From positions 8,366,354 to 8,430,353 of the forward strand of contig NC_049991.1 in the NCBI RefSeq assembly GCF_000003815.2: a stretch of 64,000 nt of DNA, read 5' to 3'. Position numbers and translations under genes: made by a program. The notes under the pieces are model-generated. The model was given only the letters and a program-made list of their open reading frames with translations, was not told where the DNA came from and made no database searches. The first letter of the stretch is position 1; each line of letters starts with the position of its first letter. This DNA is from Branchiostoma floridae. Its lineage: Eukaryota; Chordata; Leptocardii; Amphioxiformes; Branchiostomatidae. Below, in pieces: positions 32,701 to 51,070 of this stretch.

Positions 32701-35700
32701 TTAGTGCCTCATCTATTTTAGTGCAGTGCAACAAGGGCTTTATACTATACATTCTTGTGAACATGATATGTTGGAAGTACATGTTGTAAAAGGATGTATT
32801 GCCCTATATATAATAATTATATTTATTCCTTTGTTTAAAAAAGCTGTACAACAAACTGCAACTGTTATGTATTCTGTTAGTAAAACTACAGAACTGTTGC
32901 AACGAGGTAAGTTGAGATAAAGTTACATGCTGTTTATCAATATTGTGTACTTGTATGTTGTTCCAGTATATTCTGGCTGCCGTATGGGTGCGTATGAGTG
33001 GATACGAGACAACGTACTGGGCAGAGAACCAGACGGATCCTTTCCTGTATGGTGAGATAATCTAATATTAACAGTATCTATATTACATCTATAAATATCT
33101 TATCAACGTTATTCAAAACAAGGCGTATAAGGTTATGGCAATGCATGGCAAGCACTTATTCAGCTTTTTTAGACCACACAAGTCAAATAAGGTGTTGATT
33201 TTTCGATTAAAAAAGCAATACTGGAACATATGTAATATGATAGAAACAGAGTCTAAGGAAAAAGGTCTATTAGGAATTGCCTTGAAAACAAGTTTTTAGT
33301 TGTAAGATATACTTTGAGATTCATGTTTTACTCCAAGCCCTCTGTTTCCATCTTTATTGCTTGATAGTATTTATGGTACAATTTCTGGAAAGCAAGAAAA
33401 TAAACTGGTATGACCTTAACTGGTCAACCTGAGTGATGAAATTTATCAGGAAGCATTCAGGAAAAGACTGTTTGACAGCTTGATTGCAGGTTTGACTAAC
33501 ATGTTCTATTTGCCCACTCAGGAAAGCGGTTTTNNNNNNNNNNNNNNNNNNNNNNNNNNNNNNNNNNNNNNNNNNNNNNNNNNNNNNNNNNNNNNNNNNN
33601 NNNNNNNNNNNNNNNNNNNNNNNNNNNNNNNNNNNNNNNNNNNNNNNNNNNNNNNNNNNNNNNNNNNNNNNNNNNNNNNNNNNNNNNNNNNNNNNNNNNN
33701 NNNNNNNNNNNNNNNNNNNNNNNNNNNNNNNCAAGAAATAGAAAAGTCCTTGAGGCAAATCACAGGACTTTTTTCCATGAGTCGGAGATTGGTTATCGGT
33801 GCACACACCAATTCTTCCGCGACAGGGGTCCGAGATAGTGCGCGACAAAAATGTGACAAAAGGGTCTCGAGGGTCCGTGTTTGAGTTCAAATTTATCATA
33901 ATCTACTGCGAAGTGGCATTTGATACTTGCATGGCTAAAAAGCATAAGAAGTGATGTGTTTTTGGTGCAAATTGGTTTTGGGCCCGAGTGTCACTTCCTT
34001 GTATTTCTACGCGTTGGAAGTGATTCGCCCGTTGACCCAGATTCCCCGTCCATATGCGCTCTGTGAGCCGTGTTGGTATGCCTCGCGCGCCGGGTTATTG
34101 TAAAAATCTCAGTGTTATGACTTTCTTTATTTTTTGCTTGATTAATCTTAGGTGTATTCTCTTTCCGACAATATCAGTCATTTTCATGACTAAAATATAG
34201 GTGATGGGTTTATTTCCACGTCAAAATCCCCCTTTTTTGCGTACTTTTTTACGTGAAAAAAACTTTTCTCCCCCAAAAATTATGAAAAGTAGAGAGAGTG
34301 AAGAAACTGAAACCCGGCTGTTCTTAAAGCTGGAGTGATACCCTTCATTCCCTTTTCTGCTTTAGATTTATTTTCTTGAAGATACGGCCTCTCGACTTGA
34401 GGGTGCGCAGCCTCGATTTGAGACCCCAAATAAACTGGGGTGTGCACCGTTACTGTACCTATCCTGCTGTGTTGGGCAAAATGTTTGCTGTATGAAGTTT
34501 GCATGTGGAGTTTGCAAAGTTTTGTTAAAAAAAGTTTTGTTAAAAAAAGACGTCAAGAAAAGGATTTTTTTGGTCTGTTGTATAGAGGTTTCATGTGGTG
34601 TAAGGTTTACAAAGTTTTGTTTAAATAAAGAAGTTGTCCAGAATTGATATTTTTTTAGTCTATATGGTATCATTGTTCTTTGTGGTCATTATTGTACAAT
34701 AACTGAAATTTAAGTGAACGAACCCAAGATTACATGCCCATTGGTCCCCCAGCCCAACCAAACCAAACCCATCTCAACTCAACCCATCTAACCCTGCCCT
34801 ACTCATTCCCAACGAAACCTTGCCCAACACAAATCAGGTATACCAGTCTATCATATCATCGCTCCTGCATCGTCAGCATTTGTTGCAAATCATTATTCTG
34901 TAGTTCTAAGATCATACTTTCTTCTCTCCCTTGAAGAAAATGAATGCATGTGCAAGCTTTATCTATATAGTGGAGTCAGTTTGGCCTTCTAGAGCACATT
35001 AAATGTAGATATGTACAAGTCTTGGAGGTGGGATTTTATTAAATGACCATTTTTCTGAGTCAACTTCCCAGACCCCAGGCCCTTCTAGTTGTTATACACC
35101 CACTTGTTGTTTCATGACTACTGAGTAATATGAAGTGATAACAAGACCACACAGATTTGAATGCTACATTATGTTATCTCACAAGAACAGCAGGTGGTGA
35201 CAAGTGGTGTTGGCTGGGAATGTAATAAAAAGTATAAATTTTTGTTCTTTCTTCAAAAGTTTCATCTAACTGCTGTAGATAGTACTTGTTCATGGGGCTA
35301 CTGTAAATTCTGACACTTTCTGCTGTGTTGTTTAAATCTAGTTTATTTGGTTACCACCCACTGGAAATATGTCTTGTTTTCTGTTGTTTACAATTGTTCA
35401 ACTGTTTTTCCAGTTAGATGTACTAGCTGATTTCTTCTGCCAGCTCATTCTCAGTAATTTTTACAAGTTACAGTTAGCAAATTCTCAAGTTTAAAGAGAC
35501 ATTTACACAATGACAGTGTAACCCCAGGTTATAAGATAATTATCTCATGCAAAATAACCTGGGGAAAACATCATAAATTTGAATTTATCCCGTTCAAGTT
35601 CTGTTCAAAATTGGTAAAGAAGGGATGCATACTTTGTTTGAGCTTTTCTATTTTACCTTTCAGTCCCACAGATCAGTCAAAGACTTGGGGTACTTTAATT

Positions 35701-38700
35701 GGGGTGCATACATTATTCGAGAATATACAAATGTACTGTACTAAAATTACGATAAATGCAAACTCAAAGATTCTACAAGTTTTAACTAGCTTGTTATCCC
35801 AGATATTCTGGTTCTATTCACACTTTTGATTGCTTCCCTACAGAGCAGTCTGGCAAACATTAAAATAGAAACTATTGGCATTTGGATATCTGCCTGAAAT
35901 ATAGGTGAGAGTTCTGATTGGCTAGAAGTCACACTTTCCATGTAACAACATGGTATTACTAACAATTTCAAACAGGCTTGTAAAAATTTCATTCCAGAAA
36001 AAAATGCAGAACATGATTTTCTAAGGATTAGATGTTGAATTGGGCATGTGGACCTGACAACAGTTATTCTTGGAATTTTTGCAATAGTTTTATATTTGTG
36101 TTTTTTTGCAGTGACTGCTTCACTGCAAACTTTAAACCAGCATTTCAGTTACTGTACAGTATGTGACTGTAGTGCTATGTACATGTCCCTAAATGCTTTG
36201 TAGTAGCCACTGGCTAGAATTAGGTATCCCAGGCTAAATGCCCATGTTGAGCTTAACCAGTATAGATTGAATGTCATTCAGAATAAAAGATCTATTTTCT
36301 CACATGGGAAAAGAAGATACAAAGCACACGAAAGGTTATATTTAACCAGTAATTGTACATTTTATTATGCCAAAATTGCTATAACAAGCTAGGAAAGCTG
36401 TTGGTATTAGATACTGACGTACATGCACACCAGCACACTGTTTTAAGACGTTTCAATGTCAGTAACGATTTGGCTAATTGGAGCCATGAGCCCTGTTCAC
36501 ATGCTGGCAGCTATTAGTTTGACTGCAGCAATTAGCCAGCGTTCTAGCCGGGAGGAGTCATTAACGAGTGCCTACTGATTAGCATATTGGCAGTAACTGT
36601 AAAAATGGCAATGTTTGCGAGGATTCAGTTTTGCGGGGGTGAAGAAATGGAGTTATTTCCAGAGGTTTAAAGTTTGCAGTTTAAATGTGGATGTAATAAT
36701 TACATCCATAGATTAAACCATAGGGTTTTGGGGGAAGAGGACAGAATAATAATTTTATTGGTGAAGAAACCATGGCAGAAATTGTGAACATAAAACCAAG
36801 TTGCAAGCATTTCCCCTCTCACAATAGCAGGGTTTTCTTGAAAACCCTATGTTCTCGTCTTTCCCTCTTGCTAGATTTATACATTTCAAGGTGATGGAAA
36901 ATCAGAGAAATGAATCAATTTGACTGGAAGTTTATACTATTTGTATGAAGTTTGATTTCTATCTTCAACAGGACAATCCTGTTCCTATACAATTTTGATT
37001 GTATATATGTAATTTCATACAAATTAAAGTCCTTTGCATAAATTTGCAATGTGCATGTTGATGAGGCCATATGTCTGCTTTTGGCCACCATAAAAGAGCT
37101 AATTATCAAAATGTTAGTTTGTGCTTTCTTGTACAATTTGCCTGGCAAGTATGTTACATGTATTACACATACAATTGTTGACCAATAAGATCATGATGTG
37201 ATTGTGAGCTATGTGCATATGAGCTAACTAGAACAACAAACTATTGTAAAAAAATAAACAAATTATTTATTAGATTAATCAGTCATCATTCTAACTTGTA
37301 GTCCAGCCGGTAAAAAATAAGGATGATATTGTTTAAAACCGTCACAGTTTTTTGGAAGTAAATGCAATACAATTACAACAGTATCACTGACTGACTTTTT
37401 TTCTTGGCTGCAGGGTACGAGGGACGTGGCACGCTTTTACGAAAATCTTGGCGGAGGGCGGAATTCGCGGCCTGTGGAAAGGCTGGGTGCCAAACGTACA
37501 ACGTGCCGCTCTGGTCAACATGGGAGGTGAGACTGATGGGTTAAGGACCCGCTTTCTTTGGTGCATACTTTGCCATAATCCATGGCTAATTCCTATAACC
37601 ACGAAAAGATCAGCGTAGCAGGCGAGCAAGCTTGTCATAGGAACCTGCCATGAATTATGGTACCATGTACACTGAAAGACCTGCTATTTAGCTTTCTTTT
37701 ATTTTTCTCACCAGTACATCTAAATAACATTTTGCTTCTTATCTATATTCATATAAATATCATTTCTTTTAACAATATTCTCTCTTAGAAAAGATGAAGG
37801 ATCAAAGCAGCTGCTCATGGAGGTCTACATCTTATGCTGAATTTGTCAGATTTCTAATCTTTTAATCATCCATCAAAAGAAGTATTCAGCTGGTTTTCAT
37901 TCTACTTTTGTGTATCTGAGACTGAGAAAAATAGGCATTTCCCTTGTAGCAGCCGGTTATAACTGCAAGCCACCCACAGCTATAATAAAAGAGCAGCTGT
38001 TCCGAATGTATAAAGTTGGAAGGTGTCAGCCTCAGTTTTATGTGAAAACAATAGAAGTCCAACTTCCGGCATAAGCCCAATTTGTGTATATTCTTTTGAA
38101 CATAGATTAGGTGCTTCAATGGACCATGCAACTAATTTCAGGTGCTACATTATGCTCTGCTAATAAGAATATGTTGCAACGATGTGAGCTTTCTCCTAAT
38201 GAAATGGTACAGATACAGGGACTTAATATGTTTTAGTGAGCCTGTATTCTCCACATAAAAGACTGTACAAGAAAAGTATGATAAACTGCAAACTTTAAAG
38301 TAGGATATTCATAGAGACTACTACATATCTTTGAAGTATACCTTTTGCTAAAGGCATTCAAAATGAATTCCTTATCTATGATTTGTACCCAATGTGGAAC
38401 GTCAACCAAATACTTTGCCAAACATTGTTATAAGTTGTCATAGTTGTAAAATGCCAAAAAGGATTTTAGAAGATGGATGAAGAGAATTAAGTTCTAGATC
38501 CTACTGTGGCTATGTTGTTTGTTCTCGACTTTAAGTTTGATTTTGTGCAAACATACTTTGAAGTTGAAAAGGTTGATTTTTTTCCGTTTATTTCATGCCG
38601 TGACTTTTTCCTTTATAAAATGATGTAGGTCTTATACTACAAAGGTAGTGCTGGAAGCAGGATACTTCAATTTGTGTCTTTCAATTCGTTTTTTTCTGAA

Positions 38701-41700
38701 CTTTTCCTTTTATCTGGGTTACTTTGAACCAATTCAAAGGGCGATTTGTTGTCTTATAACTCTTATTCTACAAAAGAGTTTTTTTAGATAAAATACTGCA
38801 AATGTGGTGTCTTTGGTAGTCCTTAATTCTTTTATGTGGATTGCTTTGAACCAACTTAAAAGGCAATTTCTTTTCTTTTATCCATCAAATATCTCATGTT
38901 AACAACACTATAGGTCTAATAGCACAAAGAAAGTGTTCCAATGGGATAGTATATACATGTATACCATGCTTTTGGTTTTCTTTAACCTCTTTGTTTATGC
39001 GCATATGCGCATGAATCTGTTTTGTTTAATCTTGCATGTTGTTTCTTTTAACTTATACTACAGAAGAAAGTGTTAAAGATGAAATGCTTACTAATTTTAT
39101 TGTAATTTTGCTTTTGAGACTGACCTATTTTGTGTATTCCTCAATTTTTTCTTGTTCCAATCCGATAAGTCTAATGCTACAAACTCCTCAAATGAGATAC
39201 TGTCTCTTTCCTCTCTAACGTTCTGCTTCAATTTAGATTTTTTTCAAGCCAGCTTGAAAAGCAGTTTTAATTTTGTCTTTGTCTTCCATTTTTTTTCTTT
39301 TGAAAGATGTAAGTGCAATACAAAAGAAAGTCTTAAAAGGATGAATAACATATTCATCGGAGAACAGTTTATAACCTCTTATCAACGAATTTTTTTCCAG
39401 ACATTTTTTTCCATGAGAACTCAAGTGAAGATATGTTGTATTCAGCAAACTGTACAAAAGTTACGTTTGGATGTAATTAGAAAATTGTTATCTTTAGATT
39501 ACTTTATTCAGTATCTTCCTTTGTTGCCACTTTCTGCATGTATATGCCTCTCCACGGTGCTGATTTGTGAAGTGTTGTGTCCCATGCCATCTGTTTGACT
39601 GGATATGACTGAAATCATGATTAGTCACTAGTATTGGACTGTTTTCTTGTGCCATGATACATGCACACAATTTTGATATTTTTTTATAATCTTTGTTGGT
39701 GGATTGAAATGTTTTTTTTAAATATGAAGATCCACTTTTGAGTTGGTTTCATTGTTGCATTAGTGTGTTGTCAGGGCTGGAAATACTGGGAGCATGTGCA
39801 CTTTTGGTGTTCCAAAAACCTCAAGGAGTGCCTCAAGGATAAGTTTTAGGGCCCTTTTTGTGCACATCAGGAAAACAGTGAATCCATACTTGAATCACCA
39901 TCCTTTACTGTAATGCCTAAAAATCCTCATTACTGCCCTTCACACCTCATTACTGGAAAATTGTACTTCTAGTTTTAGCTATTTATTATTAACTTCCTCT
40001 CATTTGAAATGCATTCTGTTATCTTCATTGACATGTTTTGACCTTAAACACTTACTACAAATCTTGAAATGTTTGTGGTAGTTTTGTTTTACTGAGCATG
40101 TATGGTACTGTGAATTTATGTTTCCAGTGCTATTACACACACTAACTGTACTACAGAGTAGTTTTGGTCCCAATCTTAAAACATGCAAAAGTTCCTTTCC
40201 CTTGAAGTCTTACTTCAAAATGGAGCCCTCACAGAAATAAATGGATTTACAGTATTGAAGTTAGGAATCTTGTTATTTCTTGTGTAACATACACATCCCG
40301 AGAGATTTATTAGGTATGCCTTGATGAAGTGCCTTTCCAAATTATGTATCTAAATCAGCAGATACCCCCTCCAGGGCAATTTCTACACTGATATAATGAT
40401 GTTACCTGGGAGTAATAGATAACACATGGCCCTCATTAAGTTTCCTTTCCAATCTACATTGCCATCAACTTTAAAATCTCATTTCAAATCAACTGTCAAA
40501 AGTCGACAGCAAAGAACTTGTGGAAAGTTTCTGATTTATTGATGTACTTTCACATTAGGATATTCGTGTCTCTTGTGATTTATGAATTTGCTGTTATCAT
40601 TTTCTTTAGTGTCCAACACGTCGTTTGTCTATTTCTGCAGGCTGCTTATTTTGCAATTTGATGTTTCAAGATATCATGTTGAATTCATATTTTTCATAAC
40701 AGCTGCCTGCCATGGAAGATAAGAGTATGACTTGATAAATGATAACTGTATAAATCTGCATATTGCTAAAGGTGGTATCTCACTACACTTGGGGCACCAG
40801 TGTGGCATTGTGGGGTTTGAAAGATTACTCAACAAATTTCAGAGATAAAGAACAAGTTTTCTTTCGTTTTGTGTATTTTCTTGTCTTCTAAGTCATACTT
40901 TTACATATTACGCAATATCTAAATTATAAATGATCGGCAAAAATAACACAACAGTGCCACAGTGAACAAACCCAGCAGTGCCAAACTGGTGACCTAAGTG
41001 CAGTGAGATACCACCTTAAGAGAACAATTTTTTACAACTACTTTAAATCAAGACTTTTAGATGTCTTTGTGCTTTGATATCTATACATGCTTGTATCCAA
41101 TATCAGAATCAATGATTTTATTTCCATAACTGCTTTAAGTGATATAACATTACATGTACATTTTGTAACTGGAAAGTATTGAAATTACGGAAGGTATAGT
41201 ATGCTCATACTTTACAAATTGGTAGTAAAGACATATATTTTTAAGCCTGACATCTTGCAAAGGACTTTCCATACATTTGTATTAGTGAGAATGCTGGCAA
41301 TTCTTATATCTGCGTAGTCAAATTTGGAACTGTACAGGGTTGCTCGAAACAGATGGGTTTTGGATATGAGACGTAGCAAAAAGGGAAGAATGAAGGGAAG
41401 GAATGCTGCAAATTCTGTGGTAGAGCCTGACGTGCTTAAATCAGTCTCATTATAATGAGAGGCACTGCCAGGCCAAAACTACACAGAGTGACCAGTAACT
41501 GACTAAAGCTGTGAGATGCAAAGAAAGCTGTTGACCATCTTCTGAGATATAACAAGAAATTTGAATTTTCACACTCACAATGATTATGTGACATTCTTTT
41601 TCGTATGTTTTGCAGATCTTGCAACTTATGATTCAGCCAAGAGATTCATTCTCGGCCACTCCTCATTATCTGATGGACCAATCGTACATTCCCTTTCAAG

Positions 41701-44700
41701 GTGAGGACAGACTTTTTTCACAAACTTTTTCTTGTTGGTAATGGCAAAGTACAAGTGAAGTTTGATTTTGCCAAGTGGGATTGCAGTCAAACCTGTCAAT
41801 AGTGGCTACTCAAGGGACTGGCCAAATGTCATTATTTGCAAAATTGATGAGGAAATTCTATATATTCATTTTTTTCCACAATAGGACTTAAAAATAAATG
41901 CATGCAACAAATGTATCTTATGGCAGGTGGGACAGTCACAGATACCAGTTATGCAAATATGGGCCTAATTTTGATAATACAGATGTCCCATAGGTCAAGA
42001 GGTAAAGGATTGGAATTTCATACTTGTGACATGTTAAGTTACTTAAAGGTGTACAGAAATATGCATATATTTGGGGGGGGGAGGTGTTGCTAGGATCAGG
42101 CTTTTATGCAATGAGCAACAGTTCTGTTGAACATGACTGCTTTTGTTCTCAAGCTCTTTCAAAATGGATTTCCCTGGAAAATCTTGTTTTATTATAAATA
42201 ATTGTTATTCAGTTTTGGGGTTTAGACATGAGACACTGATTTTGCGCTCCAACGTACCCAGCAAATTCAATAACATTGCTTTTAGTAGTTCAAAGGCGAC
42301 ATAAATAACAACCAAGGACATGGCAAGCCCAGGGCCATTGACTAATGAAAAACCTATGGACTTGAACTAAGTTGATTTAGGTGCTACTGAACTTTGAATA
42401 CTTTTTCTTTGATGAATGTTTTATGTTCCAAGCTCAATATGAGACATTTGGGGTTTATACTTCAGTTAGAAAGACTTTAGAGCTATTAGAATGCTTGAAG
42501 GATCTTTAAGAAACTCTAGGTCCTTATGCATGTAGAAATTTTGGAAAACCATGGATTTGTCAAAACTGAAAAAGTCATGGCTAAAACTACATTTTTAGCT
42601 GAAAATTTAGCACTGAACAAGTTTGTAACATAAAATAGTGCACTATTTCAGACTTACCAGTAGAATGCCGAAGCCAACGATGGCAAAAACTCAATATTGG
42701 CGTTAGTTTCAAGCATTTAAGAATTGCACTGAAGTCAAAGTTCCAATAGCTTACTTCAAATGGTTAAAAAAGAAATGCAATAAAGTTTTTGCGATCATTT
42801 CTGAAACTTAGATGTTGAAAATATGCTATGTATTAGAAGACTGAGTGAACAATTATTCTATCTTTATGCACAAACGTCAACGCAAGTATCTAGGTTCACC
42901 TGTGTGCACAACTATAAGGTGTACAGCTCCAATATTGGAGTCACAAAAGTGCAGTGTTGAATGACAACAAGGAATCCTGTACATTCCAAACAATACTGTT
43001 TGAATCTATGCTTGAGTAGAAACTAACAGTACCTGACGTTAGTTGTCTCTGATTTGTACTGTACCATTACCAACCAATTTATGTCTTAGTCATGAATCCA
43101 TGTCTGATACCATCCCCTTTAATAGTAACCATATAATGATTAATCCTCAAATCTTACCACAATGGGACATTGACAAATGTCACTCTCTCAGAAATAAAGA
43201 CTGCCATATATCATATAGGTTATTGGCAACAATGACATCTTACATGTCTGCACTACTACTATAAGTAGTACTAGTGGATTTAAGTAGAGTTAGTGAGTTT
43301 ATAAGACTGTCTATAGTCCAGAGACGTAGGCAGTAGGGGTGGGTACCGGTACAGAAAATTCAGGTCCAGGTCTGGTTCAGGTCCAGAGGATCAGGTCCAG
43401 GTCCGGACCTGAACCTGGACCTGATTTAGTATGTGAGAACTTGTGAATGGACGATACACAAAACAATGTTCCATTTTGCCACAAATAGTATGTTTTGTGG
43501 AGTATTTGACTACCACTGGCATTCTAAAACAAGACTAACTGCCTCAGAGTACGATTGACTGTAAAACTTTGTAGAAATGACTATAAACTCTACCTGCTTC
43601 GCTCTCGTTATTTTCGGCGACCGGTAAGCCTCAAAACGCGTAAATTCCTGATCATATAATCCGTTTAATTTCTAATAGGTCCAACATCCGGTCCACCTAA
43701 TTTTTTCAGGTCCAGTTTTTGAGGTACAATAAGAAAAGCCGGTTTTGTATTGGTACACCGTACCGGTACCCACCTCTAGAAGGCAGTAATGTAATCCCAC
43801 TGTTTAGCTGTATGGATCAGATTCTGTAGATCCATAGGCAATGTTGTGGTCTTATATTCCAGTGCCTGTTCAGGGATTGTGGCAGCTTCCTTAGGCACTC
43901 CTGCAGACGTGGTGAAGACTAGGATAATGAACCAACCAACAGACAGCATGGGCAGGTGAGGTACAAGGGTACACACATGCAGCACACATGTACACTCACA
44001 CATATACACACACACATACACATACGCACAAAGACGTGCACGCAAATACATGTACATGCACACTATCGTCTACTGTGAATTGTTAATCAATTTAATAGCT
44101 GGTGTTAAAGAAATGTCCCTTCATCACCAAGGACATGTTTGAGTGTGAATGACTCATACCAGCTTAGCATTTCTAATTAGACTTCAGGGTCTTAAAATGT
44201 GTGTCTATAGGTGGCTTTATTGAATAGCAAAATGTATGATACTTATCCACCAAGATGATAATTTCAAGCAACAGTCTCTGCTGTATACCCAGGATTTGTC
44301 TTCTAGATAGATCTGGTGTGTGAAATTTATTGACAGTTTATCTCTGGACCAATCAGATCACTCTACGCTCTTGTCACATGACGGGGCATCTGTTACAAAT
44401 TACTAAGAAACCAGAATTCCTTGCTGCTCAAAACTTATTTACATGTGTAGAAATCCTCATTATGTAATTTACCAACTCAGATGACCTAATAGGATGTTGT
44501 GTGTCTGTAGAATGTGTCCTCTAAAAACTTGGAATTAGGGCCTAGGGATTTGGAGATGTGCTATTTTGTTCTATTGTTGGCTTGTTTTTATTACATCATG
44601 ACTGCATTATGTGAGCATGACCTTGTTGTGTTTCAGGGGAACATTGTATAGGTCGTCTGTAGACTGCCTTGTTAAAACGGTGAGCTGTAGTACAATTAAC

Positions 44701-47700
44701 TGTGCCTTTTGTCACACAAATTCATTTGTTTTTAATTATGATTGATAACTGTTTATAATTACTTTTCAGCCATACAAAACAAGTAGAAGGCAAGACCATT
44801 GCACCAATTTAAGTTTTTAATAAGGTGTTCCACAAGGGGTAATCCTGGGACCATTACTGTCCCTCTTGTATCTGCCTTTTTTTTTCATACTTCTACATGT
44901 ATGGAAGTCCTGAAGCAGCCTTACTGTCAACACTTGCCATTCTTCTTGAAGTTCTTCATACTTCACTCATGTGGGTGCTCCAAATAGCATTGCCTATTCT
45001 GTATCTGTATATCCGATTTAACTCAGCCTTCCAGCACAACACACCAGCTTGAAAAAGTTCTGGCAAATCAGTGGAATTGTTTTTATTGTAAAGTTTTATG
45101 ATCTTTCTCTTTTGCTTGATCAAAGATACAAAAATTACACCTACTTCAGCCAGACCTATTTGATTCAAAAATTGAATCACATAACATCAAACCAATCAGC
45201 TCTTGGATGACCAATCACTGACAGCTTCAAAGAAATTTGGTTTTGTCTGAAAAAAAAATCTGGTTTTGTTCCCAAATTTAGGTGAGACATGAAGGATTCC
45301 TGGCTTTGTACAAAGGCTTCATACCCATATGGGGGAGATTGGTGAGTGTTGGCTTCTTTGTTGTCAGGCCAGTGTCACGTGTTGTGACTTGAACATGTTG
45401 TGTTGTCCTTTTACAGGTCAGAAAAGAAGGTGTCATGGCACTGTATAAAGGCTTCATCCCCATATGGTCACGAATGGTGAGTCCCATCTTTTTTTTATAC
45501 CCATACTAGTACTGTAGTGTTGTGTACCTTGAAGTTCCTGTTTTATTACTTCAGTGAAAACAGATTGTTTTCGGTGTACTGTCAAACCTGTATTAGCGGC
45601 CACCTTTGCATAGCGACCACCTGGCCATTGCGGTGACTTTTTTTCAGTCCCTTGGATTTTTCCCATTGACCTAAGCATTAAGAGAGTCTATAGCGGCCAC
45701 CTCTCCAACGCGGCTACGGCCACACGATTTCCCGTCCTATAGATACAGAAACTCATACAGCGGCCGTATGTTACCCTGTGCCAGGTTTAAAATCGTTTGC
45801 GAGGATTTGGAGTTCCTGACAGGGTCATTTTGGCGGTAGCGGAAGGTACGTGTGACTTGAACGTTAGAGTGCAACTCATTGCCGGTGAATTTATCAACGT
45901 TCCGCCTGGCAATTGATCAAAATTTCCTCTATAGTGGCATTTTGTCTATAGTGGCCACACAGTGTTTGGAGCGGCCATATTTCTCCAGTCCCTCGAGTGG
46001 CCGCTACATGTATAGACAGGTTTGACTGTACATACAATCATGACTGTTTGTTTATCTTGGTGTCTAGGAAGTGTTATCTGAATATTGTAGAGTGACAGGA
46101 TATGACATGGATAACTGTGTAAATGCCACGGTGGCCAGAAGGAATGAAAGGTAACGGTTTTGCCCTTTTCCAAAGCTGCTAGGCATGTCAGTGACACTGA
46201 CAGGACCTTTTGAACTAATTTAAAAGGGAAAGGTCCCAAGATAGGAGATGAAAGGTTGTCTCATTTCCTGTCTTCCTGCTATGTCAGGGCTCAAAATACC
46301 ACCTGTATATGCAGGTTAGTGCAAGTAAAATTTGAGCTGTGTAGGTACATGTATTTCTGATGTCTACCTGCACCTAACCTGCACTGGTCCACGTACTGGG
46401 TTTTATACACAATGTCCTATGATTTAGGTGTATGTGAATTGTAATTAGCTGCATTGACTGTTACCGCCTATTAAGTATAAAAGAAAAAAATAGCAATGGT
46501 TCCTCAACAATTTTAGTATGATCTATTCTTTCTAAATTCAGAGTGGTGCAGGTAATTTTCAATGTTACCTGCACCAGTGCAGGTATGCAGAAAAAAGTAT
46601 TTTGAGCCCTGTATGTGGATGTTGCCCTATGGGAGCCAGAGGGAAATGCTTTAGACAGAATCAGGGGATTATTTACAATGATTATTGATAATGAACTAAA
46701 CAAAAATTCACAAACATTCCAAATATTTCATAGACATACATGTACAAATGTACCAGATCTTTGATTATTTGATTTGAACAAGTCCCAAATAGTACTGTAA
46801 ATCTTGAAATATTGATAGTTTTATGTTGAACTTCAGATTTACATTATATATGTTACCCTCATCACCTCAGCAAGCGCCTCCTTTTCCCCAAACTGAAAAA
46901 CTGAAGAATCAGCCTTTTCAAACTCATGCAAATTAATTTTTGTCACCATGCAATATTTATATGGCCTAGGATCGCAAAAGCAAATTTAAAGATTTTTCTT
47001 CCTCTTCCTCTTTGAAAATGTGTATCCCACAGTTAAATTGTGAACTTGTTGATTTGTAGTTGAAGTTTGCAAGCCTACTTTGTGTCTTGTAAGATTGATT
47101 AAGAATTATACAAGTTATAACAAGACCTGAAGCCACATTAATCAGGCAGTATTTCCGTCAGCATTTTAAATCAGGGATAAAGTCCACTAGCCCTATTGTC
47201 CAGGGCAAGTGAAAGTGCTGTTCGGGCAAGTGCATGTCCTACCTCACTTGTCCGATCGGGCAAGTAAGATTTTTCCATTGATTTTAGTGCAATTTTGATA
47301 TACTTGTTACTTTTTACAGTCATGACATCAAGCAATTGTCTACAGAGAATTCCATTGATGGAAGTGAAAATGCATGAACTAGAATTTTGGGCAAGTGAAA
47401 AATTNNNNNNNNNNNNNNNNNNNNNNNNNNNNNNNNNNNNNNNNNNNNNNNNNNNNNNNNNNNNNNNNNNNNNNNNNNNNNNNNNNNNNNNNNNNNNNNN
47501 NNNNGCTTGGAGAGTACATTTTTTATGTGCTTGCCCGATAGGACAAGTGGATTTTAGAAAACTTGTTCAACCCTGTAAATCATCCTTTTTTTGCAGTTTT
47601 AACTTTGCCATTTTCCCAGTGACTTGTAAAATTATGACACTATGAATACTGTAAATGCATTTAAGTTCGCTGGGATTTAAGTTCGCCGTAGCGGGAAAAG

Positions 47701-50700
47701 GGACTTTTCGTGGTGGATTTAACTTCGCGGTAACACCATAGACTGCAGTCTAATACCATAATAGAAAAATGTTCGCGGTGCAGTTCAGGGTAAAGTGGTC
47801 AATGCAAAAAACCGCGAACATTTCTTCAATTACAGTATGTGTTTCTATTGTATAACAGTTACTACTGTACTACAGTACTAGTATTGCTTTAACTGTCAAC
47901 ACAATACACAGGTTATAGCCTTCTTTTTTATCCTACTGCAAAACCAAAGCCTGCAAAAATCAATAAATTTACTGTTACAGTACAGTCATGCTTCAGTTTG
48001 GCCTGTGCTTGAAGTCATCCCCTAGGGTTTAATTAAAAGTTTGCAATTTTGATATCTCAGTCTGAGCCATAACAATCTTGAATTATTAAAGGCCACAGTA
48101 GCATCGTTTCTGACTTATCAGCTTTTTCCACAATTTTGCCAAATTATCAAAATTATTCCAATTGTCTTCTTTGGTTTATTCTTGTACTTAAGCTTGGCGT
48201 TTGTCCCAGTTGATACCAAAGGAAAGTTTTATGTGCAGATTTAAGCTGTGCTACTGTGTTTGTAGTATCTAGCCAATATGAAAAGCAGCTAGGGCATTTG
48301 CAGTATAACTTGCAGCCATATCTTATTTCACCCCTTGAAACTGTACAAGGTACGGAAGTTTTCCTCAGACTCTGTTTTATGCTTAACACATGTCTTCACA
48401 TGTCTTCCAGCTTAACACAAAGTCTTTAAATATGAGAAGCAAAGATTAGCCTAAGGAATGGACTTTCTAAGAAAAAATTCTGTAAAGAAAAATCAACTAG
48501 ACATGCTTCATAATGCATTCTACATGCTAAGCATACAAGTCCCTAGCACAAAATTAATATGTTTCAAAGTATTCATCACTTTAAATCTTAATTTGAGAGC
48601 AATGCATGTACAGGCCAACCCTCTTTAATATGTATTACTTAAAGACAGATTATGCAGTTGTGATTAGGATGGCTATAAGCTTCCCCCTAATCCATTTCTG
48701 GTGATTGCCCCTTAAGCTTCAAAGACAATTTTCTTCAAGATTAGAAATCCTTGAAAATGGTTGTTAAACGAGCCCACCCTCGGGAAAAGACCTGAAGGTT
48801 CTTATGTAAACCACAATCATCATCTTAATTGGGAACTCTCGACAAGGCTTCAAGGCATAACTGGAATGCAACAAGTTAATTTTGCAAGATAAAAGTTTGA
48901 CAAATAAGAAAGACGTGTATCCCTCTCTTAAGTTGGACTGGAAAATTGGCGATTAGTTTATAAATCCATATAATATAGCAACCAGGTCTGACAGTACATA
49001 AAGGATTATATCTAGTATGCACCTGTCAGTATATGGATAATGAGAAATGGTTTTGGGCATGGTCCAACTCAACATGTAGACATGAAAGTATGATGACAAA
49101 CCACATGGATACTCAGATATCCTGTAGGATTTGGGGGTACTTAATCATACGTCTACATGTAAGCTTTTAATTATGAATGTTTGTCAGAAGAGTTCTTAAA
49201 AAGACAATAAGTTTCTGGTAACTTAGAAAGTTTAAGGGTCAGTAACACTAGGTTCAAGTTCTTGATTGTCAGATTTTTTAACATCATTTTTTTCAGATTT
49301 AACAAGAAAGACCATTTATGATGTAAATCAAATACATGTTGTATTATGGCACCAACATTGGTTAAGCCAACATAGGGGTCCAAATTTCTTATTTACTCAA
49401 ATTCACACGAGTAGGGTGGTCGGGGTATCATCCTGCAATGGTTCTGAGTTTTAGTAAATTTCGAATTAAAATGGTGCATTCTAAGGTATCTTGAGGGGCA
49501 AATTATTGTCAGAGAGGTCACATGCAGTTGAAGACTGAGTGGCAGCCCTGGTCAATCAGAATTTTATGCTTGTCAGAGGATCTGCTTCCCAGTGGAAGGG
49601 CTTCTATTTTTTATTAAATTTAGAACAAATTGACACCTGGACACATGCCTGTCAGTGTTGTACATGTAGGTTCTTTATCATGCTTGAGGTGTGGCTTTTC
49701 TTAAACAAAGGATTTCCAGATTAACATTCTATCCCAGAAAACATTGAGGGAGTGGCTAGGTCGTAAGTGCCTTTCCCAAGGGCACATCACTAGAGCCTCA
49801 GCAGCCCAGTCTATACATGTATATGATTGTATGATTGTTCTAAACAATTTGTTTATTTCTCCTGCAGGCCCCCTGGTCACTGACCTTCTGGCTGTCCTAT
49901 GAGCAGGTCCGACGGTTGTCAGGGACAACGTCCTTCTGATGATTGACATCTGTCCATCACAGTCATGTGACCAGCTGCCATCATGCCAACCTTTGTGTTG
50001 ACTGATGTTGACACTCTTTTCCTCTACCTCTCATAGAACTAATAAGCCAGTTCTGATGTTGAATTTTGCGTGACATGTGAAGCATTATGCATAATATATG
50101 TCAAAGTTGAAGCCCCCTGAGACATAGCCTAGTTACATCTGGACATGGTATCAAGCATGGCAAAGACAGGTCTTATTTATAGCGTCACCTTTGACCTGTT
50201 GCATATGCAGTTCTAACTGTGAACTTACTTATTAAAGTAGTGGCTGGTTCTATAGTCTATGAGTTAGATATTCATGACAGCCTAACATGAACTGGCAGAT
50301 ATTTCTAAAATGACAGTTTCAATGTAAATATGGTGACCTTATCTCAACATTGATTTGTCTCCAATATCATAAGAATTTATGTTAATGCAAAGCATATCAG
50401 AATAATGTTGAATAATTTTCAAACTGCATTTCATTATGCATTCCTTTTTTTCCCTTCAAACAGTGCAATGTTGTATTTTGCATTTGATTATGGAAGTCTT
50501 TTAGTCAACAAAGAAGACACAGAGGAGACGTAGAAAATTGGCTAACCTTCCGTATTTGTATAAATTTGCCTAAAGGTCCCTAGAACCATGATGTCCCACA
50601 AAAAAAAGCCTACATCATAGTACCTAAACATGATCACAAGATTTAGGGAGTGGGCTATGATAATAGATTTGTTTCTTCCTGGCCTCTCTTCCTAGACTGT

Positions 50701-51049
50701 TGTTTATTATATTACTATGACTGTTATATAAATGCAACTGCTGCCCCCAAAAGGAAAGAGACTGGCAGTTTGAAGACAGGCCTTCCAAACTGTATATGTC
50801 CATTAGATGTGTACGATTTCAAAAGTTACTGAACACAAGACATCCCCCCCCCAAAAAAAAATGCAAGTTTAACCATTCTATACTGTCTGTTGTTTTTCAT
50901 TTCTTGGAAGCGAGGATTTGTACATTGTGTGAAGGACATGAGTCATTCCACTAACACAGCTCCTTTTGCCACCACAGGCCCCATGGTACATAGTGTTCTG
51001 GATGTCGTATGAGAAGTTACTACAGGCTGCCGGGTCACAGTCATTTTGA
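26664..51049 (+). CDS. UCP4: Mitochondrial uncoupling protein 4 (SLC25A27-like carrier), gene with duplicated 3' exons
   Basis: This is a spliced gene for an SLC25 inner-membrane carrier. Exons: 26664-gap, 29369-29482, 29638-29700, 32967-33051, 33522-gap, 37414-37526, 41616-41700, 43863-43955, 44637-44679, then 45282-45341 or 45417-45476, then 49868-49939 or 50978-51049. All junctions are GT-AG and every phase joins. Carrier signatures seen are PLDLTK (repeat 1), PADVVK (repeat 3), [11 protein letters not shown] (repeat 2) and ALYKGF (repeat 3). Cytoplasmic-gate motifs are YEWIR (repeat 1), YDSAK (repeat 2) and YEQVR (repeat 3, exon 11a). The match to vertebrate UCP4 is recognised from blocks such as [12 protein letters not shown] and [20 protein letters not shown], which separate it from UCP1-3. 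UCP4 family members act in the mitochondrial inner membrane; their physiological substrate is still debated. Most of exons 1 and 5 lies in assembly gaps. The gene is convergent with PARN. The family call is firm; the exact paralogue within the UCP4/UCP5 group is slightly less so. Confidence 0.93.
26682..26781. other. Assembly gap (100 N) inside UCP4 exon 1
   Basis: Exactly 100 N, the usual placeholder for a gap of unknown size. It hides the rest of exon 1 and its donor. Confidence 1.
27293..27425 (+). repeat. AAATC-type microsatellite
   Basis: Imperfect repeats of caaat/caaatc with aatcagat interruptions. Confidence 0.95.
28332..28767 (-). mobile_element. hAT-like non-autonomous DNA transposon, copy A
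   Basis: A 436-bp element with a perfect 8-bp target-site duplication gtccaagc (28324-28331 and 28768-28775). The right end ggtacccacccctA mirrors the left end of copy B. A cluster of ggacct/aggtcc words fills one end (about 28680-28740). No transposase frame is present. An 8-bp duplication and TAGGGGTGGG-type ends fit the hAT superfamily. Strand is set relative to copy B. Confidence 0.85.
29369..29482 (+). CDS. UCP4: UCP4 exon 2: first matrix signature
   Basis: The acceptor is gactacag and the donor gtacgt. The exon enters after one base of a codon and leaves after one base. It encodes [16 protein letters not shown] with the PxDxxK carrier signature of repeat 1, then a lysine-rich matrix loop and [11 protein letters not shown]. 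Confidence 0.93.
29638..29700 (+). CDS. UCP4: UCP4 exon 3
   Basis: The acceptor is atgacag and the donor gtaagt. It encodes [20 protein letters not shown], the EG-x4-WQG part of the first repeat and the start of helix 2. The phase joins exons 2 and 4 without a stop. Confidence 0.93.
29721..29764 (+). repeat. GA/TC microsatellite
   Basis: A nearly pure GA run starting 20 nt after the UCP4 exon 3 donor. It probably grew from the 3' tail of the adjacent LINE. Confidence 0.95.
29735..29925 (-). mobile_element. LINE 3' end with ORF2 C-terminal zinc finger and TC tail
   Basis: On the minus strand the frame reads [20 protein letters not shown] and RADVN, stop at 29805-29807, the C-x3-C...H...C terminal finger of CR1/L2-type LINE ORF2. 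A short 3' UTR ending aggaggccataaat and a TC microsatellite follow. It is 5' truncated in UCP4 intron 3. Confidence 0.72.
30620..31364. mobile_element. Large inverted-repeat element with ACTCGGMCC subrepeats
   Basis: About 745 bp. The left end gaatcaggacgactcggacc mirrors the right end ggtccgagtcgtccaagattc. Both ends carry several ctcggacc / ctcggccc words, at least seven in all. No clear target duplication, no coding frame. Confidence 0.65.
32390..32525. mobile_element. Mutator-like foldback element, copy 2
   Basis: A 136-bp relative of copy 1 in UCP4 intron 3. The ends are TAGTCTCTAAGCAG and CTGCTTCGAGATTA, and the 9-bp flanks are ggttatggc / gcttatggc (8/9). It shares the arm core agatagtatcaaag and the loop word ctccctttgg with copy 1. 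Confidence 0.8.
32967..33051 (+). CDS. UCP4: UCP4 exon 4
   Basis: The acceptor is gttgttccag and the donor gtgaga. It encodes [18 protein letters not shown] followed by a short loop ending FPVW, whose last codon is completed by the next exon. YEWIR is the cytoplasmic-network motif [FY][DE]xx[RK] of repeat 1. Confidence 0.93.
33522..33533 (+). CDS. UCP4: UCP4 exon 5, partial (runs into gap)
   Basis: After the acceptor tgcccactcag the bases gaaagcggtttt continue the frame as W-K-A-V before the N run. Vertebrate UCP4 has WKSV at this point. The missing part should hold the second PxDxxK signature and leave two bases into a codon. It would be roughly 120 nt if it has the human length. Confidence 0.7.
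33534..33731. other. Assembly gap (198 N) inside UCP4 exon 5
   Basis: A run of N that hides the second PxDxxK signature of the carrier. Confidence 1.
33732..37413 (+). other. UCP4 intron 5
   Basis: Mostly unrecognised single-copy-looking sequence. It has a CCAAAC-type low-complexity stretch (34740-34815), a small hairpin (35522-35564) and a homeobox/POU-motif-rich block (about 36460-36600). No coding exon was found. Confidence 0.6.
35522..35564. repeat. Short perfect hairpin
   Basis: ccccaggttat pairs exactly with ataacctgggg across a 21-nt AT-rich loop. Confidence 0.8.
37414..37526 (+). CDS. UCP4: UCP4 exon 6: second repeat, matrix side
   Basis: The acceptor is tcttggctgcag and the donor gtgaga. 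It encodes [24 protein letters not shown] and [13 protein letters not shown]. This block is strongly diagnostic of UCP4 and contains the EG-x4-WKG signature of repeat 2 and the start of helix 4 with a conserved arginine. Confidence 0.95.
38620..39330. repeat. Diverged pyrimidine-rich tandem array, unit about 140 bp
   Basis: A taggtctaatactacaaag-like word recurs near 38627, 38757, 38911, 39051, 39165 and 39306. It alternates with a ctttgaaccaacttaaaagg-like word. Units are 114-154 bp and strongly diverged. Confidence 0.6.
40770..41016. mobile_element. PIF/Harbinger-like foldback element
   Basis: A 247-bp element with ends AGGTGGTATCTCACTACACTT and its near-perfect reverse complement, continuing inward for about 50 bp, flanked by TAA on both sides. 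A 3-bp TAA/TTA target is typical of PIF/Harbinger elements. It is non-coding. Confidence 0.7.
41616..41700 (+). CDS. UCP4: UCP4 exon 7
   Basis: The acceptor is gttttgcag and the donor gtgagg. It encodes [20 protein letters not shown] and GPIVHSLS, the end of helix 4 (YDSAK, cytoplasmic network motif 2) and the start of helix 5. Confidence 0.93.
41784..41822. mobile_element. Broken end of the pogo-like family
   Basis: It matches the left end of copy D (cagtcaaacctgtc, then actcaagggactgg). No partner end is present, so it is truncated. Confidence 0.6.
43334..43778 (+). mobile_element. hAT-like non-autonomous DNA transposon, copy B
   Basis: A 445-bp element homologous to copy A in the opposite orientation. 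Its terminal inverted repeats taggggtgggtaccggtac and tagaggtgggtaccggtac differ at one base. The flanking 8-bp duplication is gtaggcag / gaaggcag (7/8). It shares the aggtcc-rich end and the internal tttgtagaaatgac block with copy A. Confidence 0.85.
43863..43955 (+). CDS. UCP4: UCP4 exon 8: third matrix signature
   Basis: The acceptor is cttatattccag and the donor gtgagg. It encodes [20 protein letters not shown] then IMNQP, the helix 5 segment with the third PxDxxK signature. A competing AG ten bases downstream (ttcag at 43873) would break the frame, so the upstream acceptor is chosen. Confidence 0.93.
43970..44063 (+). repeat. Imperfect CA/TG microsatellite
   Basis: An acacac-rich run with tgtacatg interruptions, starting 15 bp after the UCP4 exon 8 donor. 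Confidence 0.9.
44637..44679 (+). CDS. UCP4: UCP4 exon 9
   Basis: The acceptor is ttgtgtttcag and the donor gtgagc. This 43-nt exon encodes [14 protein letters not shown] in the third matrix loop and ends exactly on a codon boundary, which lets either version of exon 10 follow. Confidence 0.92.
45282..45341 (+). CDS. UCP4: UCP4 exon 10a (alternative copy)
   Basis: It is 60 nt, phase 0 at both ends, with acceptor cccaaatttag and donor gtgagt. It encodes [20 protein letters not shown], the EG-x4-YKG signature of repeat 3 and the first turn of helix 6. It is 15/20 identical to exon 10b. The acceptor tract is weaker in pyrimidines than that of 10b. Confidence 0.88.
45417..45476 (+). CDS. UCP4: UCP4 exon 10b (alternative copy)
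   Basis: It is 60 nt, phase 0 at both ends, with acceptor gttgtccttttacag and donor gtgagt. It encodes [20 protein letters not shown], closer than 10a to the vertebrate SWLRM ending. Only 75 nt separate it from 10a. Using both would keep the frame but insert 20 residues into repeat 3, so exclusive use is expected. Confidence 0.9.
45579..46028. mobile_element. pogo/Tc1-like non-autonomous element, copy C
   Basis: A 450-bp element flanked by TA on both sides. Ends are CTGTCAAACCTG and CAGGTTTGACTG. The interior is rich in gcggccacc words and homologous to copy D (58507-59392) in opposite orientation. TA target and CAGTCAAACC-type ends fit the Tc1/mariner/pogo group. Confidence 0.75.
46285..46611. 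mobile_element. CAGGG-ended element with 5-bp duplication, copy 1
   Basis: A 327-bp element with perfect 15-bp ends CAGGGCTCAAAATAC and GTATTTTGAGCCCTG, flanked by TATGT on both sides. The subterminal regions repeat acctgcac/gtgcaggt words. The ends look hAT-like but the duplication is 5 bp. Confidence 0.8.
47172..47575. mobile_element. CAGGG-ended element with 5-bp duplication, copy 2
   Basis: Flanked by TAAAT on both sides. It begins CAGGGATAAAGTCCACTAG and ends CAACCCTG. Subterminal gggcaagtg/cacttgcc words repeat at least six times. It contains a 100-N gap. It is related to copy 1 by end type and duplication length rather than by interior sequence. Confidence 0.65.
47405..47504. other. 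Assembly gap (100 N) inside a transposon
   Basis: Exactly 100 N within the element 47172-47575, so the true element length is unknown. Confidence 1.
47649..47835. mobile_element. Tc1/mariner-like short element
   Basis: A 187-bp element flanked by TA. The ends CTGTAAATGCATTTAAGTTC and the complement of GAACATTTCTTCAATTACAG form imperfect inverted repeats. The interior repeats (a)agttcgc/gttcgcgg words. Confidence 0.6.
49745..49815 (-). mobile_element. SINE-like fragment
   Basis: On the minus strand it reads gtgcccttgggaaaggcactt, close to the SINE body word at 5325. It sits just upstream of UCP4 exon 11a. Confidence 0.4.
49868..49939 (+). CDS. UCP4: UCP4 terminal exon 11a
   Basis: The acceptor is tttctcctgcag. 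It encodes [19 protein letters not shown] and TTSF followed by TGA (72 nt). It keeps YEQVR, the third [FY][DE]xx[RK] cytoplasmic-network motif, and resembles the vertebrate UCP4 C terminus (PWSMVFWLTYEKIR). This is the canonical-looking ending. Confidence 0.92.
   Translation, partial: APWSLTFWLSYEQVRRLSGTTSF
49940..50977 (+). other. 3' UTR of 11a / intron before 11b
   Basis: This stretch would be 3' UTR in the 11a transcript and intron in the 11b transcript. No repeat family was recognised. Confidence 0.6.
50231..50236 (+). promoter_or_regulatory. Candidate poly(A) signal for the 11a transcript
   Basis: ATTAAA is the nearest common poly(A) hexamer, 292 nt after the exon 11a stop. No AATAAA was seen between 11a and 11b. 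Confidence 0.35.
50978..51049 (+). CDS. UCP4: UCP4 terminal exon 11b
   Basis: The acceptor is gccaccacag. It encodes [19 protein letters not shown] and SQSF followed by TGA, also exactly 72 nt. It matches 11a at 11 of 23 residues. The motif reads YEKLL, so the basic residue at the fifth position is lost. A poly(A) signal lies 16 nt after the stop. Confidence 0.88.
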   Translation, partial: APWYIVFWMSYEKLLQAAGSQSF

Positions 51050-51064
51050 CGGCTTCTCATCAAC

Positions 51065-51070
51065 AATAAA
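51065..51070 (+). promoter_or_regulatory. Candidate poly(A) signal for the 11b transcript
   Basis: AATAAA lies 16 nt past the exon 11b stop and is followed by TG-rich sequence (tggttgt at 51099 and 51125). It would give a very short 3' UTR. Confidence 0.5.

Follow-up and report, generated by a model that had tools for sequence, protein, structure and literature searches.

The 3' end of a UCP4-like mitochondrial carrier gene in the lancelet Branchiostoma floridae contains two pairs of tandemly duplicated exons: the penultimate exon is present as the adjacent copies 10a and 10b, and the terminal exon as the copies 11a and 11b. The most likely reading of the sequence is that 10a and 10b are mutually exclusive and that 11a and 11b are alternative terminal exons, which would yield up to four UCP4 C-termini. 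The window analysed here, that is, the whole stretch of 64 000 nucleotides, corresponds to C13:8366354-8430353, and the genome searched for further copies comprises 513 431 437 bases in 431 contigs. The exon numbers follow the scheme of an earlier note on this DNA. The features are as follows.

37414..37526, + strand: UCP4 exon 6 (ctgcag before, gtgaga after; 80% identity to a provisional human UCP4 sequence)
41616..41700, + strand: UCP4 exon 7 (ttgcag before, gtgagg after)
43863..43955, + strand: UCP4 exon 8, with the repeat-3 carrier signature PADVVK (ttccag before, gtgagg after)
44637..44679, + strand: UCP4 exon 9 (tttcag before, gtgagc after)
45282..45341, + strand: exon 10a (60 nt, 20 residues, phase 0-0, AG before, GTGAGT after)
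45342..45416, + strand: intron between 10a and 10b (75 nt)
45417..45476, + strand: exon 10b (60 nt, 20 residues, phase 0-0, AG before, GTGAGT after)
49868..49939, + strand: terminal exon 11a, coding part and stop (23 codons; tttctcctgcag before)
50231..50236, + strand: candidate poly(A) signal for 11a, ATTAAA (hexamer match, at the edge of a dispersed repeat)
50978..51049, + strand: terminal exon 11b, coding part and stop (23 codons; gccaccacag before)
51065..51070, + strand: candidate poly(A) signal for 11b, AATAAA (hexamer, 15 bases past the 11b stop)

The assignment of the gene to UCP4, made in the earlier note, is supported at the level of a UCP4-like gene, with the name, as opposed to UCP5 or UCP6, resting partly on a provisional human sequence. 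When the translation of exons 6-9, 10b and 11a is compared with the proteins in PDB, the best relatives are UCP2 (124 bits) and UCP1 (112 and 110 bits), compared with at most 62 bits for the ADP/ATP carriers and 37 bits for the oxoglutarate/malate carriers, so that this query is nearer to the UCPs than to the other carriers of known structure. This human UCP4 sequence matches exons 2, 3, 4 and 6-11 in order, with 73% identity for exon 8, and every exon found aligns to it; with the same query, exons 1 and 5 have no match in the window. The missing exon 5, which carries the signature of the second repeat, is expected in 33054-37413 and may be hidden inside the 198-N gap at 33534-33731. Exons 6-9 followed by either exon 10 and either exon 11 form a single frame of 154 residues together with the final stop. 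All four combinations of 10a or 10b with 11a or 11b match the Mito_carr family (PF00153) with 76.5 to 81.2 bits (cut-off 22.3) over profile positions 8 to 90-92; the score without exon 10 is 39.9 bits.

Exons 10a and 10b are homologous neighbours that agree in length and phase and have intact frames and splice sites, with 15 of the 20 residues identical, just as the earlier note had described them; at the nucleotide level, 45 of 60 positions are identical. The direct repeat extends over 68 nt (78% identity) and takes in the splice sites, whereas the intron flanks are unrelated (34% identity upstream and 38% downstream, over ~40 nt). The window was compared in six frames, under BLOSUM62 scoring, with the exon 10 and exon 11 peptides as queries. 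The score of 10a against 10b is 85; the next-best scores (33 and 26 for the 10a query, 40 and 33 for 10b) come from further carrier exons of this gene, and no unrelated peptide scores above 20 and 22, respectively. Given these scores, the repeat identity and the unrelated introns, the resemblance is real and beyond chance. Upstream of 10a, the intron contains a short dispersed repeat (44994-45050), relatives of which stand in tandem on C16, C11 and C10.

The first description, confined to exon 10, is correct but incomplete, because the terminal exon is doubled too. Both a motif scan and the six-frame scan of the window detect 11a and 11b, which share a CAG acceptor, phase 0, a length of 23 codons and a TGA stop, begin with the same residues, and are identical at 11 of the 23 residues and 44 of the 69 nucleotides. 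The score of 11a against 11b is 74, and the runners-up within the window reach 27 and 25. Each copy has its own acceptor, stop and candidate poly(A) hexamer, the hexamers being pattern matches. The stretch 3' of 11a up to the ATTAAA (50042-50236) matches a dispersed repeat that has, among the matches listed, many other locations in the genome. With the terminal exon duplicated as well, the variation takes in all of helix 6 and goes beyond the 20 residues of exon 10. The order 10a-10b-11a-11b and the different divergence of the pairs suggest that they come from separate duplications rather than from a doubled 10-11 block. The six-frame scan of the window yields no further copy of either exon 10 or exon 11, although a 100-N gap (47405-47504) could hide one, and no duplicates of exons 6-9; on the + strand of the window, exons 2-4 have no duplicates either, and the only matches to exon 3 are its counterparts in the other repeats.

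Across the genome, the protein search gives 22 matches at E values up to 10, five of which are UCP4 exons 9, 10a, 10b, 11a and 11b, and the strongest match outside UCP4, on C5, is 56% identical. The DNA search returns one full-length match for the exon-10 region (the other 9 of 10 are short dispersed repeats) and one for the exon-11 region (the other 39 of 40, among the matches listed, are again short dispersed repeats). A second UCP4 gene or a haplotype copy thus does not appear among these matches, and the single full-length match per region indicates that the pairs are not two alleles placed side by side.

The two pairs together encode helix 6 and its approach. UCP1 numbering was taken from the PDB-search alignment to exons 6-9, 10b and 11a, and is fixed by the residues named in PMC10413660 (R277, L278, W281, N282 and K293), which align in register. 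The histidine/lysine difference before EG, noticed earlier, is confirmed and aligns with UCP1 N261; the differences between WGRL and WSRM flank an arginine kept in both 10a and 10b, whose UCP1 counterpart, R277, is a substrate contact point. Exon 10 has five differences in all: besides H/K, these are G/S at L276, L/M at L278, and two more at P264 and T265. The differences in exon 11 include S/Y at UCP1 N282 and R/L at UCP1 K293; W281 is kept. In UCP1, according to PMC10413660, N282 forms hydrogen bonds to guanine, K293 is part of the cytoplasmic salt-bridge network, and L278 is among the hydrophobic residues of the cavity. The gate motif [FY][DE]xx[KR] is fitted by YEQVR in 11a and not by YEKLL in 11b, which lacks the basic residue. 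Because the changes adjoin the contact-point arginine and coincide with residues of nucleotide contact and of the cytoplasmic gate in UCP1, the isoforms would be expected to differ in how they handle substrate or nucleotide, or in how stable their gate is, and the forms ending in 11b would have a weaker cytoplasmic gate. Nucleotide binding by UCP4 need not resemble that by UCP1, and the effects of these residues in UCP4 are suggested by analogy.

The divergence of 10a and 10b is mostly synonymous. The NG86 estimates are dN 0.17 and dS 1.15 (0.20 and 0.66, respectively, by LWL85), the differences at codon positions 1, 2 and 3 number 7, 1 and 7, and synonymous change is above expectation (Fisher P 0.003). 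When the same amount of neutral change is simulated, only 0.09% of the 20 000 trials retain at least 15 of the 20 residues and no stop. Both copies therefore look constrained, as the earlier note had argued from their intact frames, and phase, length and splice sites are kept in both even though the introns have lost all similarity. For 11a and 11b (NG86 dN 0.42, dS 0.78, ratio 0.54; Fisher P 0.19), 5.8% of the simulated neutral trials are as conserved as the observed pair (P 0.058), so that the signal of constraint is suggestive only, and 11b may be under relaxed constraint. Identity between the copies is higher at the positions conserved in human UCP4 (provisional sequence) than at the others, in exon 10 (11 of 12 vs 4 of 8, P 0.058) as well as in exon 11 (8 of 12 vs 3 of 11, P 0.070), which is likewise suggestive only. 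Some residues of this human sequence are kept by one copy alone, F6 by 10a, M7 and M20 by 10b, S4, L9, R15 and S18 by 11a, and V6 and K13 by 11b; hence neither copy is merely a decayed version of the other.

The 75-nt intron between 10a and 10b contains a single TRAY branch-point-like pattern match, TGAC at 45385-45388, with the candidate branch A at 45387, which places it 45 bases past the 10a donor and leaves 29 bases to the end of the intron. Another match, to a looser pattern, is only 3 nt away from the acceptor and could not serve. In human genes, a donor-to-branch-point distance below 50 bp has been taken as potential steric interference and applies to 57 (9%) of the mutually exclusive exon clusters (PMC5740500); the 45 bases seen here fall below this limit. 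Such crowding of the donor and candidate branch point may favour the use of 10a or 10b, not of both. The donors score 7 of 9 for 10a and 8 of 9 for 10b, within the range of exons 6 to 9 (7 to 8; exon 9 itself 7 of 9), and the acceptor of 10a (TAG) is weaker than that of 10b. RNA structure was considered as an exclusion device, but the fold is ordinary (z -0.82, with 33 of the 200 shuffles as good). Introns of ~75 nt are handled by invertebrate spliceosomes, which counts against steric exclusion, and the reading frame is no enforcer of exclusion either because the exon is 60 nt long.

The proposed mechanism starts from a 3' end doubled twice through tandem exon duplication. A transcript would then include 10a or 10b, never the two together, and would either end with 11a, cleaved at the signal near 50231, or skip 11a and end with 11b, cleaved near 51065. 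As many as four equally long proteins would result, different in the matrix helix h56 and the transmembrane helix 6, and the choice among them is probably regulated by tissue or stage, in the manner of SLC25A3.

An alternative that we regard as unlikely, without dismissing it, is that each pair has only one copy in use, the other, likeliest 11b or else 10a, being a relic that is still open by chance or because the loss is recent. This would fit the constraint on 11a and 11b, which falls short of significance, the 12 of 23 residues at which 11b differs together with its missing basic gate residue, and the weaker acceptor of 10a. It sits poorly with the strong synonymous excess in both exon-10 copies: a fully neutral copy would give a dN/dS of at least ~0.5, whereas exon 10 shows 0.15 to 0.30, and random change of the same size brings a stop into 51% of the copies for exon 10 and 66% for exon 11. 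Moreover, 11b retains its acceptor, phase, stop and poly(A) hexamer.

The inclusion of both 10a and 10b in one transcript, so that the third repeat would gain 20 residues, as with the duplicated HLH exon of vertebrate COE (PMC2394523), seems improbable. An exon length divisible by three and phase 0 at every border would allow it: with 10a and 10b together the frame stays open over 175 residues, and the Pfam total is then the highest (94.5 bits), so that the family model does not exclude double inclusion. This match, however, is split into two stretches, the better of which stops at profile position 73 of 96, and a second h56 and helix-6 start would have to be placed inside a tightly packed three-fold carrier. 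An assembly artefact, in which divergent haplotypes were placed in tandem, is barely credible. Lancelets are highly polymorphic, and the 100-N gap lies between 10b and 11a; yet the copies are separated by 75 nt in the case of 10a and 10b and by 1.1 kb in that of 11a and 11b, each in sequence without a break, the identity of 32-38% between the intron flanks is far past allelic difference, and no further copy is found among the matches listed in 513 Mb. Compared with these alternatives, mutually exclusive use of 10a and 10b with alternative ends at 11a and 11b is the reading we prefer.

A bolder extension of alternative splicing here, and quite a speculative one, is that UCP4 carries a two-by-two helix 6 cassette in which splicing switches between a gated carrier (11a) and one whose cytoplasmic gate never shuts completely (11b), trading regulated transport for leak. 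Exon 10 would then set the surroundings of the contact arginine, and exon 11 the nucleotide contact and the strength of the gate. Should this be true, mitochondrial coupling would be under splicing control inside one gene.

Exon 3 of SLC25A3 lies in the first carrier repeat. Its tandem versions 3A and 3B are used tissue-specifically and differ in kinetics, as reported in PMC2636774 and PMC5740500, and so form the nearest parallel: both genes encode mitochondrial carriers of one family and have homologous internal exons in tandem, which in SLC25A3 are mutually exclusive. The location differs, in that the UCP4 pair belongs to the third repeat and has another pair, of terminal exons, after it. 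KRAS 4A/4B resembles the terminal pair in having two alternative last coding exons with their own stops that arose by duplication (PMC9882654), but the KRAS exon specifies a flexible tail for membrane targeting, whereas UCP4 exon 11 encodes most of a transmembrane helix. The human clusters of mutually exclusive exons described in PMC5740500 share with exon 10 the homologous neighbours of the same length and phase in a folded domain, and SLC25A27 (UCP4) is absent from the main text of that paper. In COE/EBF, a chordate gene, the HLH exon is likewise duplicated in tandem, but both copies are mandatory in vertebrates, as described in PMC2394523. PMC10419851 cites the cloning, in 2010, of an uncoupling protein from a lancelet. 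No open-licence paper on SLC25A27 in Branchiostoma was found, and the open-licence matches listed contain no description of exon duplication in UCP4 or any lancelet carrier, in line with the statement of the earlier note that it knew of none. Tandem alternative exons as such are already well known, and the UCP4 pairs would be a further case, the terminal pair being new here.

To our knowledge, the substrate of UCP4, and whether it truly uncouples, are unsettled, and natural swaps that, within a single helix, touch just the region of substrate and gate would amount to a ready-made mutagenesis experiment. With the phosphate carrier as the first, UCP4 would be a second mitochondrial carrier that is tuned by tandem exons. 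If conserved among lancelets, the pairs would date a regulatory layer; we know of no such layer in human UCP4.

In the UCP-type paralogues on C12 and C5, used as controls, just one copy of the homologous region is present in the 16 kb and 10 kb, respectively, searched on the gene strand. The C5 paralogue has a repeat of another kind (C5:15176906-15177438): four tandem copies of a unit of ~142 nt cover an acceptor-like stretch and the start of another carrier exon, and the last copy alone continues PTDLVK, the others reading PTAIIKSN or PPAIIKSN. Exon-scale tandem duplication is therefore not peculiar to UCP4 in this genome. Three further carrier matches, C10:11696350-11696622 (- strand), C10:11698728-11699000 (+ strand) and C11:6183120-6183392, all score 82.3 bits and have long open frames, and those on C10 are arranged head to head at a distance of ~2 kb.
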